Below are positions 2,181 to 7,661 of a DNA stretch of 20,754 nt, piece by piece; the stretch's first letter is position 1, and each line of letters opens with the position of its first letter. The position numbers and the translations under genes were made by a program. Source of the DNA: a virus; the IMG/VR virus record IMGVR_UViG_3300050014_000330, positions 1-20,754 of that record. One strand, written 5' to 3'. The notes beneath the pieces were generated by a model, which saw only the letters and a program-made list of their open reading frames with translations, was not told the DNA's origin and searched no databases.

Positions 2181-3572
2181 ATGAAACACGGAAATAAGAT
2201 CGGCCCCGTTAAGCAATCAATTAGCCAATTGAATGCGCAGGTGGCGAGTTTAATGTTATCGGCTGCCGGAGACTATACCGTCATGGGCGTCTATTGGGAT
2301 ACGACGTCAAATCCGGTTTTGGTCAGAACGGACGCATCTGCAACTTGGACGGCAGCGGCAGGAGTAGACGGTGCTCGTGTGACCAATAATTTCGACAACG
2401 CATCGATATATCGCGAAATAGGCCCAGTGACCGATTCCTACGGCAATGTGTTTATTCGCATCCCAAAATTTTATATACAGCGCATAACGGGGGTTGGGTT
2501 TAAAACAACGCGGATTAGTAAAACGCAGTATCCTGGATTTTATCTACCTCAGTGTTTTTGGGACTTTACAAACAACAAAGAGTTAGCCTACATAGACGTC
2601 GGAAAATACAAAGCGTCGCTTTCTTCCGATACCACAAAGCTGGAAAGCAAACCTAACGTGTATCCACTTATCAACGACACTATAATACAATTCCGTACGT
2701 TGGCGGTTGCAAATGGCACAGGGTATCAACAGATGGACATACACGTCGTGGATATGCTACAGGCGTTGTTCACTATCGAATTTGCAACGTTGAACTCACA
2801 GGCAATTGTCGCCGGTTATACAAATGGTCAATATACCGCAACACACCTAGCTTTAGCGACGGAAGCGGCAGCCAATCGTATAATCGTAACAAATGCGCAG
2901 GGGGCGCTATACCGCGTAGGACAGACAATCTCGGTTGGTACATCACGGGGCGGGAATCAGATTTTTTACGGCAGAACCATAACGGCAATTACTGTAGACA
3001 CGCCAACGACGGGGCAAACGGCAATAGTATTTGACGGCGCGGCGGTTACTATCACTATCGGCAATATGGTTTACAACACAGGCTATAAAAACGGGTTTTC
3101 GGCCAACATCGCGGCATCTACTGGCAGCCCAGTCAGCAATTCTGATGGGCTGAGACCGTTTGTGTATCGCGGCATCGAATCGCTATTTGGTGATATTTAT
3201 CAGTGGGTAGATGGGGTCAACATTAATGTCAATCAAGCATGGGTTTGTAAGGACGCGCGAAGCTATGCAAGCAATCTGTTTACCGCCCCTTATCAGCAAC
3301 TGGCCTATATCAACGGTAACGCCGATGGATACCTAAGCGCCATGGGATACGATCCGGCGTTACCGTTTGCTCAATTTCCAGTCGGGATTACAGGATCGTC
3401 GACAACATACTATTCAGACTACTATTATCAGGACGTAGAGCAATGTGTTGCCTGCTTCGGCGGGTCCTGGTACTACGGCTCGTCTGCAGGGCTTTGGTAC
3501 TGGTCCCTGTACTCCTCCTCGTCGAACTCGCTCGTGCTCGTCGGGGGGCGGCTCCTTAAAAAACCTCTTTAG
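2181..3572 (+). CDS. DGR target: tail-associated protein with C-type-lectin-like variable C-terminus
   Basis: The 463-aa product starts at ATG 2181 behind GGGGCGGG. Residues 1-30 are a helical N-terminus (KQSISQLNAQVASLML). A long conserved body follows (VRIPKFYI-like, YPGFYLPQCFWDF, VDVGKYKASL, MDIHVVDMLQALFTIEFATL). About residues 360-463 form the C-type-lectin/formylglycine-generating-enzyme-like domain (FVYRGIESLFGDIYQWVDG, then GGSWYYGSSAGLWYW and GGRLLKKPL). Residues about 424-459 are encoded by the variable repeat. Known DGR targets of this fold display variable residues on a receptor-binding face, so this is very likely the adhesin or tail-tip ligand. Residues at the VR sites are Tyr, Ser and Leu, as expected from adenine mutagenesis of Asn-rich template codons. 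Confidence 0.88.
   Translation: MKHGNKIGPVKQSISQLNAQVASLMLSAAGDYTVMGVYWDTTSNPVLVRTDASATWTAAAGVDGARVTNNFDNASIYREIGPVTDSYGNVFIRIPKFYIQRITGVGFKTTRISKTQYPGFYLPQCFWDFTNNKELAYIDVGKYKASLSSDTTKLESKPNVYPLINDTIIQFRTLAVANGTGYQQMDIHVVDMLQALFTIEFATLNSQAIVAGYTNGQYTATHLALATEAAANRIIVTNAQGALYRVGQTISVGTSRGGNQIFYGRTITAITVDTPTTGQTAIVFDGAAVTITIGNMVYNTGYKNGFSANIAASTGSPVSNSDGLRPFVYRGIESLFGDIYQWVDGVNINVNQAWVCKDARSYASNLFTAPYQQLAYINGNADGYLSAMGYDPALPFAQFPVGITGSSTTYYSDYYYQDVEQCVACFGGSWYYGSSAGLWYWSLYSSSSNSLVLVGGRLLKKPL
3448..3557 (+). repeat. DGR variable repeat (VR)
   Basis: This aligns without gaps to 3632-3741 (offset 184), starting at a shared TTGCC and ending at a shared CTT. In the 102 columns from TTC at 3456, 13 of the 17 template adenines differ here, while only 11 of 85 non-adenine columns differ. 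Changed codons include GGS(W), the YY pair, S-L-Y-S and L-V-L. The GC-rich end (about 3541-3557) is the expected place of the homing initiation (IMH-like) segment. It lies at the very end of the target gene, 13 bases before the stop codon. Confidence 0.88.
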
Positions 3573-3577
3573 GGGGT

Positions 3578-3597
3578 CTGGGGGACGAATCCCCCGG
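3578..3597 (+). promoter_or_regulatory. GC-rich hairpin just downstream of VR
   Basis: GGGGGA (3580-3585) pairs with TCCCCC (3590-3595) around the tetraloop CGAA. A T-G wobble and a C-G pair extend it to eight pairs. It begins 6 bases after the target stop codon and 21 bases after the VR end. Experimentally characterised DGRs have a similar 8-bp hairpin with a 4-nt loop shortly after VR that stimulates mutagenic retrohoming. No T tract follows, which argues against a plain terminator. Confidence 0.65.
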
Positions 3598-3612
3598 AAG
3601 ATACATTAACGC

Positions 3613-3773
3613 GGGGTTATGGGATGCGCGCTTGCCCTATTCGGCGGGGCCTAGCTCAACGGCTCGTATGCGGGGCTTTGGTACTGGTACCTGGCCCACT
3701 CTTCGTCGAACCCGAACGTGAACATCGGGAGGCAGACTCTTATTAAAGCAATATCATTGCATCCCATAATCCT
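3613..3773 (+). ncRNA. Predicted DGR template RNA core, TR closed by an inverted repeat
   Basis: TTATGGGATGC (3617-3627) is the exact reverse complement of GCATCCCATAA (3759-3769). Four more pairs or wobbles (3613-3616 with 3770-3773) extend the stem to about 15 bp. It encloses the entire TR, so in an RNA the two TR ends would be brought together. A small hairpin (TTACC/GGTAA, 3773-3786) follows. The 82 bases from there to the reverse transcriptase start hold no gene and would be the downstream spacer that DGR enzymes use for template-primed synthesis. RNA boundaries are inferred. Confidence 0.6.
3632..3741 (+). repeat. DGR template repeat (TR)
   Basis: This is the non-coding near-copy of the VR, between the target gene and the reverse transcriptase, as in classical DGR cassettes. 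Read in the VR frame it gives LFGGA-stop-LNGSYAGLWYW, then YLAHSSSNPNVNIGRQTL. The stop is TAG at 3652-3654, whose adenine corresponds to G in the VR (TGG). AAC codons remain at 3658, 3709, 3715 and 3721, but CTC, GCC and CAC stand at columns where DGR templates of this type usually have AAC. The template therefore seems partly diversified itself. Confidence 0.85.
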
Positions 3774-3855
3774 TACCACTTGGTAAAAATTCGCGATAAA
3801 GAACAGGGTTTAGTAAATTATTGAAACACCTTGACGCTAATAAGAAAGGGATATA

Positions 3856-4920
3856 TTGAAAAGAATCGGTTTTATTTATCCTAAGGTATACGACGTCGAT
3901 AACATTATCAGCGCAATGCGCAAAGCATCGTTAGGAAAAAGGCAACAACGAAACGTCAAACGAGTCCTCGCCAACGCCGACTATTATTCGTATGAAATTC
4001 AGAAGATGTTGATGAACAAAAGTTACGTTCCGTCCGCTGCGGCAATCAAAGAAATTACGGACAATTCCAGCGGAAAGAAACGTATGATCTGTAAACCAAA
4101 TTTCTATCCAGATCAGATTGTGCATTGGGCGCTTATGCTTCAGCTACAGCCTGTTATAATGCGTGGAATGTACGAATTTAATTGCGGAAGCATCCCGCAT
4201 AGAGGCACGAGCTACGGGCAAAAGACTATAAGAAAATGGCTTGATTCAGATCCTAAGAATACAAAATATTGCTTGCAAATGGATATCAAAAAATACTATC
4301 CGTCAATCGATGGCGAGATTTTGAAGCAAATGTTTCGGAGAAAAATCAAGGATGCTGATTGTCTGTGGCTCATCGACAGTATTGTTGACAGTAATCAAGG
4401 CCAGCCGATCGGTTATTATACCAGCCAATGGTTTGCTAATTTCTTCCTACAAGATTTTGACCATTTTGTCAAAGAAAAACTTGGCGTAAAACATTACGTT
4501 CGTTACGTGGATGATCTCGTCCTGCTCGGGCCGAATAAGAAAAAGTTACATCAAACGAGAAAGGACATAGCGATATATTTATCTGGTATGGGATTGCGGA
4601 TAAAAGAAAATTGGCAAGTTTATAAAATAAGCGTAAGGGCAATAGACTTCTTGGGTTTTCGGTTTTATAAGGACAAAACAACTTTAAGGAAACGAACCTC
4701 TCTGAGAATAAGGCGGCGTATCGCTAAGATCAAGAAAAAAGGAACGCTTAATGTAAAGGACGCATCCGCAGTAATATCGTATTGGGGATGGATAAAACGT
4801 AGCGACAGTTTCGGATTTTATCATAAATATGTCAGACCGGTTGTTAGTATTAAATCTGCAAGAAAGGTGGTAAGCGATAATGGAAAAAGAGATCAGATAT
4901 GCGGAAATTCCCGCATATGA
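3856..4920 (+). CDS. DGR reverse transcriptase
   Basis: The 354-aa product starts at TTG 3856 with AAGAAAGGG five bases upstream. It has a fingers/palm domain: MDIKKYYPSID (142-152) holds the first catalytic Asp, and QPIGYYTSQ (183-191) fits the DGR-specific [LIV]GxxxSQ signature that replaces QGxxxSP of other reverse transcriptases. YVDD (217-220) carries the catalytic Asp pair, and FLGFRFY with the following basic helices (LRKRTSLRIRRRIAKIKKK) is the thumb/RNA-binding tail. It copies the TR RNA into adenine-mutagenised cDNA that replaces the VR. The length is usual for DGR enzymes. The 3' end overlaps the next gene by 41 bases. No in-frame damage is visible. Confidence 0.92.
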   Translation: MKRIGFIYPKVYDVDNIISAMRKASLGKRQQRNVKRVLANADYYSYEIQKMLMNKSYVPSAAAIKEITDNSSGKKRMICKPNFYPDQIVHWALMLQLQPVIMRGMYEFNCGSIPHRGTSYGQKTIRKWLDSDPKNTKYCLQMDIKKYYPSIDGEILKQMFRRKIKDADCLWLIDSIVDSNQGQPIGYYTSQWFANFFLQDFDHFVKEKLGVKHYVRYVDDLVLLGPNKKKLHQTRKDIAIYLSGMGLRIKENWQVYKISVRAIDFLGFRFYKDKTTLRKRTSLRIRRRIAKIKKKGTLNVKDASAVISYWGWIKRSDSFGFYHKYVRPVVSIKSARKVVSDNGKRDQICGNSRI

Positions 4921-5041
4921 CCAAGAAACACAATACGTCATCGAAATGGCACCTGTTGATATGGGCGATTATATCTACATCGGGTTAGAAGTTAAGGACG
5001 TGATTCCGGATGCTCCAAACGATCCCAACGAGCAATTTTGA
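4880..5041 (+). CDS. Small acidic phage protein overlapping the reverse transcriptase end
   Basis: The 53-aa product starts at ATG 4880, with AGAAAGGTGG (4861-4870) as ribosome binding site. It begins MEKEIRYAEIPAYDQETQYV and ends in an acidic Pro/Asp/Asn tail (DAPNDPNEQF). Such small proteins are common between tail and lysis genes of Bacillota phages, and I know no function for them. It overlaps the reverse transcriptase by 41 bases and the next gene by 32 bases in other frames. It is too short and of the wrong composition for Avd, the basic helical DGR accessory protein. Confidence 0.65.
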   Translation: MEKEIRYAEIPAYDQETQYVIEMAPVDMGDYIYIGLEVKDVIPDAPNDPNEQF

Positions 5042-5501: not shown

Positions 5502-6041
5502 ATGACAAACATTCGCGGGTACATAATCATCGTTCTTTTAGCAATCGTGCTAATCGCGTTTCTGCGGTATGTAATACCGTATCTCAAGAGCAAAATCACG
5601 CTCAACAATCTGACTGTTTTGGAAAAAAAGGTCGAGGCCAAAGTCAACGCTGCGATGAACAAAATTACCGTAGCGGTAAACGGCATGTCTCTCGGTGAAA
5701 CGCGGAAGCAATGGGTTATGGACGAATTGGCAAAAGCAAATATTGTTATTGATGACGAATTAGATCACATGGTCGAAACCGCTTATAATAAACTCCCACA
5801 GGTTCTCGATTGCGCGACATCATTACTCGAAGATCTTATTTCAAAACTTACGAATGGCATTGTAACACCAGAAACGGCGCTGCCGGTTATTGTGGGCGCC
5901 GCCAAGAAAGCGGAAACTGTTATTGAACAGGTGATAACAGTCCCTGCCCCTGCCCCCGTACCCGACGTGTCCGTAGCGTTACCCGGACCCACAATAGATC
6001 CCATGCCAATGGCGACGCCGGAGGCTCCGAATGTCCAGTAA
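5502..6041 (+). CDS. Phage holin, LL-H (Phage_holin_6_1)-like
   Basis: The 179-aa product starts at ATG 5502 with AAGGAG nine bases upstream. The upstream ATG at 5415 lies in another gene and is not needed. There is an N-terminal transmembrane helix (YIIIVLLAIVLIAFLRYVI, about 7-25), then a long helical cytosolic part with alternating charge (KKVEAKVNAAMNKITV, GETRKQWVMDELAKANIVID). The C-terminus is Pro/Ala-rich (VPAPAPVPDV). This single-helix plus long helical domain is typical of the Lactobacillus phage LL-H holin family. It overlaps the endolysin start by 11 bases, confirming the lysis cassette. Confidence 0.7.
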   Translation: MTNIRGYIIIVLLAIVLIAFLRYVIPYLKSKITLNNLTVLEKKVEAKVNAAMNKITVAVNGMSLGETRKQWVMDELAKANIVIDDELDHMVETAYNKLPQVLDCATSLLEDLISKLTNGIVTPETALPVIVGAAKKAETVIEQVITVPAPAPVPDVSVALPGPTIDPMPMATPEAPNVQ

Positions 6042-7572: not shown

Positions 7573-7625
7573 GCGCTTGACTGGGGGTCAAGAGGCCGCA
7601 AGTTCAAGTCTTGTCACTCGGACCA
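7573..7625 (+). other. attP: Phage attachment site core: 3' fragment of tRNA-Pro(GGG)
   Basis: The fragment contains an anticodon stem CTTGA/TCAAG (7576-7580, 7588-7592) with a 7-nt loop CTGGGGG whose anticodon is GGG. A 5-nt variable loop, a T arm GCAAG-TTCAAGT-CTTGT (7598-7614), the 3' acceptor strand CACTCGG, discriminator A and CCA (7623-7625) follow. The 5' half of a tRNA (D arm, 5' acceptor CCGAGTG) is absent. A tRNA 3' end beside an integrase gene is the standard att site, and recombination there would rebuild the host tRNA gene. Position between lysis genes and integrase marks it as attP, or a tandem-prophage junction. Confidence 0.82.
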
Positions 7626-7626
7626 A

Positions 7627-7661
7627 AAAAGTCCTGTAACCGCAATGGTCGCAGGACTTTT
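7627..7661 (+). terminator. Terminator following the tRNA-Pro fragment
   Basis: AAAAGTCCTG (7627-7636) pairs with CAGGACTTTT (7652-7661), with a T run at its end. It lies two bases after CCA, so the phage would supply the rebuilt host tRNA gene with both its 3' end and a terminator. It may also stop transcription that reads into the integrase gene from the left. Confidence 0.8.

Follow-up and report, generated by a model that had tools for sequence, protein, structure and literature searches.

A probable adenine-mutagenised replacement within the template repeat of a phage diversity-generating retroelement

The template repeat (TR) of the phage diversity-generating retroelement (DGR) described here bears, judged from an alignment with its relatives, a signature that is normal for a variable repeat (VR) and is here found in the template. 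The repeat is probably the true TR of the element, with about its first two thirds replaced by adenine-mutagenised sequence, either by way of cDNA or from a VR; this reading follows from a change that is restricted to adenines, mixed products, a density of change like that of a VR, an internal edge and a sequence other than that of the present VR. The change lies on the TR side, concerns only adenines among the conserved columns and forms a tract in the 5' part, and the RNA scaffold and the reverse transcriptase (RT) are intact; from these observations we infer the event, its source and its recency.

Parts of the element and its RNA scaffold

The DNA analysed, called the window below, is a whole stretch of 20,754 bases of a virus (record IMGVR_UViG_3300050014_000330), and it holds a DGR by every part that can be tested, namely a tail protein gene with the VR, a TR and an RT, all intact-looking. 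Its features are as follows.

2181–3572, + strand: target gene, an open reading frame for a phage tail protein of 463 aa with the VR at its C-terminus (PHROG phrog_5302, E 5e-52)
3448–3570, + strand: VR, from the repeat-pair alignment with the TR; its variable codons fit an AAC-type template, not the present TR
3577–3598, + strand: GC-rich hairpin 3' of the VR, with a 9-bp stem and a 4-nt loop (fold against shuffles)
3614–3627, + strand: 5' arm of the TR-enclosing stem, pairing with 3759–3772 (covariation, 20 sequences)
3632–3754, + strand: TR, from the ungapped alignment to the VR, with TR-type flanks
3649–3712, + strand: putative A-mutagenised patch inside the TR (nine lost-A columns at 3649–3697; 3712 possibly a tenth)
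3652–3654, + strand: in-frame TAG (TGG in the VR)
3715–3747, + strand: 3' third of the TR, all conserved columns unchanged (0 of 5 A columns and 0 of 8 non-A columns changed)
3759–3772, + strand: 3' arm of the TR-enclosing stem, pairing with 3614–3627 (covariation)
3774–3847, + strand: RT-18 RNA (Rfam RF03021, 64.2 bits)
3856–4920, + strand: intact DGR-type RT of 354 aa (open reading frame; phrog_1423, E 4e-107; RVT_1)

The non-coding TR lies near the RT, the VR lies in the target gene, and a hairpin of the BPP-1 type follows the VR; the hairpin has a z-score of −1.96, with equally good folds in 7 of 200 shuffles, and is likely a DGR target-site element with a role like that described in the available text on BPP-1 (PMC3240598). 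The likeness to the BPP-1 DGR, as presented in the accessible parts of PMC3240598 and PMC12875486, covers the VR at the 3' end of the target gene, the hairpin after the VR, the TR near the RT and adenine-biased change. A difference from BPP-1 is that none of the 10 proteins searched in the region was recognised as the product of an Avd gene. The motif GxxxSQ is a mark of DGR RTs. The RT of the window can be aligned along its length to RTs accompanied by TR/VR pairs, and none of the residues that are invariant in a 24-sequence alignment is altered in it.

A stem of 14 bp surrounds the TR. In the window and 19 relatives (20 sequences), this stem and the hairpin that follows it have standard pairs in 94.7% of 380 cells, and both sides have changed in 36 cells, compared with 11.6 in shuffles. 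RT-18 was found upstream of the RT in all eight relative loci searched; in the window its match begins at 3774, and so the TR-enclosing stem lies outside the RT-18 match.

Adenine loss in the template repeat

The TR aligns to the VR without gaps at an offset of 184, and over 123 nt the two differ at 17 of the 25 TR adenines and at 16 non-A positions. The core, in which 13 of 17 As but only 11 of 84 non-As differ, has the adenine bias of a DGR, yet over the 123 nt 52% of the mismatches (17 of 33) face an A, which is below the at least 75% given for nearly all DGRs in the available text of a large survey (PMC8144416). With 11 core non-A mismatches, the VR is not derivable from the present TR by A>N change. 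The longest exact word common to the two repeats is 16 nt; near the 5' edge, only 9 nt (TTCGGCGGG) are common. The earlier note had reported a stop codon and CTC, GCC and CAC codons in the TR, and these are present where it placed them: read in the target frame, the TR has GCC at 3649, TAG at 3652–3654, CTC at 3655, GCC at 3694, CAC at 3697 and CCG at 3712. Its observation that non-A differences between TR and VR gather on variable codons was borne out, as 6 of the 11 core ones fall on nine columns kept as A in relatives (hypergeometric P 8e-5).

Relatives were gathered as RT relatives from viral contigs and genomes, as target-gene relatives and as TRs with the conserved 3' pattern. TR/VR pairs were detected by script in a scan of 170 loci (numbered with L), many from the same contigs, which gave 86 distinct pairs, including that of the window; 32 loci had no pair. 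L140, L141, pairs shorter than 95 nt, pairs cut by the locus end and repeated TRs were left out of the TR alignment, and two TRs without a VR (L062 and L069) were added, giving 79 rows, 77 of them with a VR. Each TR was scored at columns where at least 80% of the other TRs agree, and part of the TR set was picked by its conserved 3' end, so this end may look more conserved than it really is. Another 78 later loci, 71 of them with a repeat pair, were scanned for arrays and outliers only and stand outside all alignment counts, and the upstream stretches of eight later and earlier loci were inspected by eye.

In the TR of the window, 9 of the 22 conserved A columns have lost the adenine that a template keeps at its variable codons, while all 33 conserved non-A columns are unchanged (Fisher p 7.8e-5; 79 TRs); the lack of change at the latter rules out random decay of the TR. 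The lost-A columns are 3649 (now G), 3650 (C), 3655 (C), 3656 (T), 3667 (T), 3688 (T), 3694 (G), 3695 (C) and 3697 (C), a mixture of 2 G, 4 C and 3 T. This is the highest A loss among the 79 TRs; the next are L120 (7 of 22) and L139 (5 of 22), both of which have non-A changes too (7 of 33 and 8 of 34, respectively). A search for ancestral AAC in the TRs of relatives, proposed earlier as a check, was run and places the change on the TR side: among the 78 other TRs, AAC or AAT stands at 3649 in 75, at 3655 in 71, at 3694 in 76 and at 3697 in 76, while GCC at 3649, GCC at 3694 and CAC at 3697 occur in none and CTC at 3655 in one (L120). In the RT tree, the window lies inside a clade of 12 RTs (100/97), nearest to L083 and L086 (92/77), whose contigs are also L063 and L064, with AAC-type TRs; the other TRs of this clade have AAC or AAT at most variable codons. 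The A-column scoring in 79 TRs and the placement of the RT beside AAC-type TRs indicate that the adenine loss on the TR side of the window is a derived state.

The present TR is also not the parent of the VR. In the TRs of 76 relatives there are 59 departures from A, and the VR agrees with 55 of them, as expected if a VR is rewritten after its TR has changed, whereas the VR of the window agrees with the TR at 3 of the 9 lost-A columns (p 1.4e-4). The 11 mismatches at 84 core non-A positions compare with 69 at 5640 in the 76 relatives and are the highest count in the set; relative pairs have 0–3 such mismatches in 72 cases, 5 in L134 and L067, and 9 in L146 and L108. At the lost-A columns, the VR thus fits, by alignment, an A-rich parent TR and not the present one. 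Because it agrees at only three of these nine columns, either the VR was last rewritten before the TR changed or recombination joined this TR to this VR.

The changed columns form a tract. Between 3634 and 3714, 9 of 17 conserved A columns are changed, where 10.7 of 17 would be expected for a real VR, and downstream of 3714 none of the 5 conserved A columns is changed, nor any of the 7 As if all As up to 3734 are counted. Seven unchanged As in 3715–3734 have a P of 2e-5 under the rates in the VRs of relatives (5' part, 988 of 1544 As changed; 3' part, 3715–3735, 291 of 459); none of these 76 VRs has a 3' part without change. On conserved columns alone the contrast between the 5' and 3' parts is weak (9 of 17 against 0 of 5, p 0.054). 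Column 3712, which is A in 34 of the 78 other TRs, is a possible tenth lost A.

Origin of the replaced tract

The replaced patch would span about 3649–3712, and its replacement would postdate the last rewriting of the VR. Its donor may have been the DGR's own mutagenised cDNA, which would be homologous to both TR and VR and would have been patched into the TR, ending before the 3' third; this route is preferred, although its chance is put at roughly a little under even. A close second as donor would be the VR of a sister genome, acting by gene conversion, and other routes taken together appear rather unlikely. The two donors cannot be separated on the present sequence. It has been reported that the cDNA is made from TR RNA and that its integration, described as incompletely understood, may involve an Okazaki-like intermediate (PMC12875486, available text), and in BPP-1 an element at the 3' end of the VR sets the direction (PMC3240598, available text). 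Since the 3' end and flank of the TR in the window differ from those of the VR and direction in BPP-1 is set at the VR 3' end, a rare, partial, homology-driven patch seems more likely than a full homing event. The earlier suggestion of a TR overwritten by VR-like sequence keeps its first half, as an A-mutagenised patch on the TR side, while back-transfer from the VR becomes one of two mechanisms. The explanation draws on one contig and goes against the published view of an unchanged TR with a direction set by IMH; further events must also be assumed for the G>A of the TAG and for two silent differences between TR and VR, at 3672 and 3702. No near relatives of the window were found by TR pattern, TR flank or endolysin.

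Gene conversion would mean that a segment of the VR of a coinfecting or sister phage was transferred into the TR by ordinary recombination during replication, a tenable but tentative reading. It would explain a tract with internal edges and a VR-like density of change, and it agrees with the fact that most silent letters are common to TR and VR; L108, moreover, is an example in this group of how TR and VR alleles from separate lineages can meet. However, at 6 of the 9 columns the donor cannot have had the letter of the present VR, which calls for a former VR or a second genome; a TAG is unlikely in a working VR, and 16 nt as the longest exact word between the TR and the present VR is short for recombination.

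Slow loss, in which selection on the adenines was relaxed, single mutations accumulated at variable codons and the scaffold codons stayed constrained, is improbable. Single-adenine losses are tolerated elsewhere, as the 59 departures in 76 relatives show, and constrained scaffold columns with a weaker retention of As would likewise direct change to A columns, but the VR shares nearly all losses in those relatives and only a third of them here, and nine A-column changes, with none at conserved non-A columns and none in the 3' third, have the look of one tract. An assembly artefact, with reads from VR variants joined into the TR place of the contig, is equally doubtful: polymorphic VRs, a distance of 184 nt between TR and VR and a record with no stated read depth would favour it, but shared words of 16 nt at most, and 9 nt near the 5' edge, are too short for usual assembly words, and wrong joins would be required at both edges, which is unlikely for this sequence.

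A reading of the 3632 repeat as a silent second VR, the real TR being elsewhere or lost, is very improbable, since VR-like codons and a record that is a 20.7-kb fragment are set against TR-type flanks, the TR-enclosing stem and the RT-18 RNA, no second TR was found in that record, and 15 of the 19 relative records searched gave matches, each at one spot only (a TR with or without a neighbouring VR). The same flanks, the covarying 14-bp stem, the adjacent RT-18 RNA and the intact RT argue that the repeat is no leftover VR, and they speak against the idea in the earlier note of two VR-derived copies whose original TR was lost.

In-frame stop, template arrays and wider context

The TAG is a separate event outside the A signature and not a lost-A codon, because it comes from a G>A change in a scaffold column where 60 of 78 TRs have G; at 3652, TGG is found in 58 of the 78 other TRs and TAG in none. 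If the DGR fires, the TAG would be kept in about one third of rewritten VRs by the average of the relatives, in whose VRs 1279 of 2000 template adenines are changed, and a TAG left as it is would cut the tail protein short after residue 429 of 463; the truncated adhesins foreseen earlier may thus fairly be inferred only if the DGR still fires. A code with TAG reassigned was considered, and against it TAG ends 2 of the 13 listed genes and so is in use as a stop.

Templates with VR-like codons were also met among the relatives, in arrays. In L120 and L121 (RT 52% identical), the VR is followed by six template-like copies (L120:1567–2856), and the two loci are identical over 6685 bases save three positions, all in the VR and all opposite As of the copy at 2571–2677. 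Neither VR has a non-A difference from this copy, which is not the one adjoining the RT and has lost A at 7 of 22 columns; by sequence comparison, this is recent diversification from a diversified template. In L140 (and likewise L141), 1099–2664 holds eight VR-like copies between the target gene and the RT, with starts from 1388 to 2555 and a spacing of 158–178 nt, which keep their scaffold words and vary at the variable codons; the RT-proximal copy matches the VR at 98% identity, with both differences opposite a template A. Since the VRs of L120/L121 and L140/L141 derive from array copies, templates with VR-like codons can be kept and used. The arrays share such codons with the window and differ from it in having six or eight template-like copies, one of which gives the VR, where the window has one; it is conjectural that the process proposed for the window also gives rise to arrays. 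Inspection by eye just upstream of the RT in L176, L177 and L127 showed template-like units starting with a stem arm like GGGATTTGG/GGGACTTGG, more than one of them in L176 and L127, and in L176 also as a detected repeat pair.

Several outliers were weighed as like cases and set aside. The L108 pair (112 nt) has 9 non-A mismatches in the core and 10 overall, but AAC is retained in its TR, and letters of the L167 TR occur in its VR (L108:2521–2883), so that its TR and VR seem to be different alleles and TR and VR may be exchanged between phages. L146, L134 and L067 lack the pattern of the window on inspection, and the L141 pair consists of two members of one array.

The known kind to which the window belongs is the DGR, and the changed template is its difference from the described kind. 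In the available text on BPP-1, the TR "remains unchanged" (PMC3240598), whereas the TR of the window has an adenine signature. The DGR phages with RT-18 (L005, L009 and L063/L064) are like the window in the order of parts, the TR-enclosing stem, the TR 3' end and, where searched, RT-18; they differ in their AAC-rich TRs, and VRs of the group derive from their TRs, 72 of 76 pairs having 0–3 non-A mismatches in the core. At 52% (17 of 33), the window would by number fall among the seven low-adenine clusters of PMC8144416, as given in its available text, and these may hold similar changed TRs. Variants of TRs in Treponema have been described as lineages of TRs (PMC4891356), and non-A substitutions have been treated as VR changes (PMC6642488), both as far as the accessible text of these papers goes. 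No report of a TR with an adenine signature, or of arrays of diversified templates, was found in a search of open PMC papers.

DGRs have been described as one-way systems from a protected template to a target, and the template of the window is evidence that this protection can fail; a scrambled master template suggests that the TR can be rewritten by the device or by its products. It may be, and this is put forward tentatively, that the directionality of DGRs leaks, that mutagenised cDNA at times enters the TR, so that templates evolve by their own mutagenesis, and that some phages keep the results as pre-diversified arrays (L120/L121, L140/L141) usable as later VR sources, the window being the fresh single-copy state. 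Each self-hit takes adenines and hence future variability, which sets a natural limit to the system. Together, the window and the arrays of relatives hint at how templates arise and change, and lost A columns that the VR does not share offer a sequence test for other cases.

Two further observations concern the layout of these elements. L051 has one TR and two VRs about 3.4 kb apart (1452–1561 and 4837–4946), within a direct repeat of more than 1.1 kb. In the window, a tRNA-like stretch at 7573–7630 lies between the lysis genes and the integrase and is 84–93% identical to four phage records, in one of which this place is annotated as tRNA-Pro; ARAGORN found no whole tRNA there. The stretch is possibly attP, and if so, the DNA is not in the integrated state.
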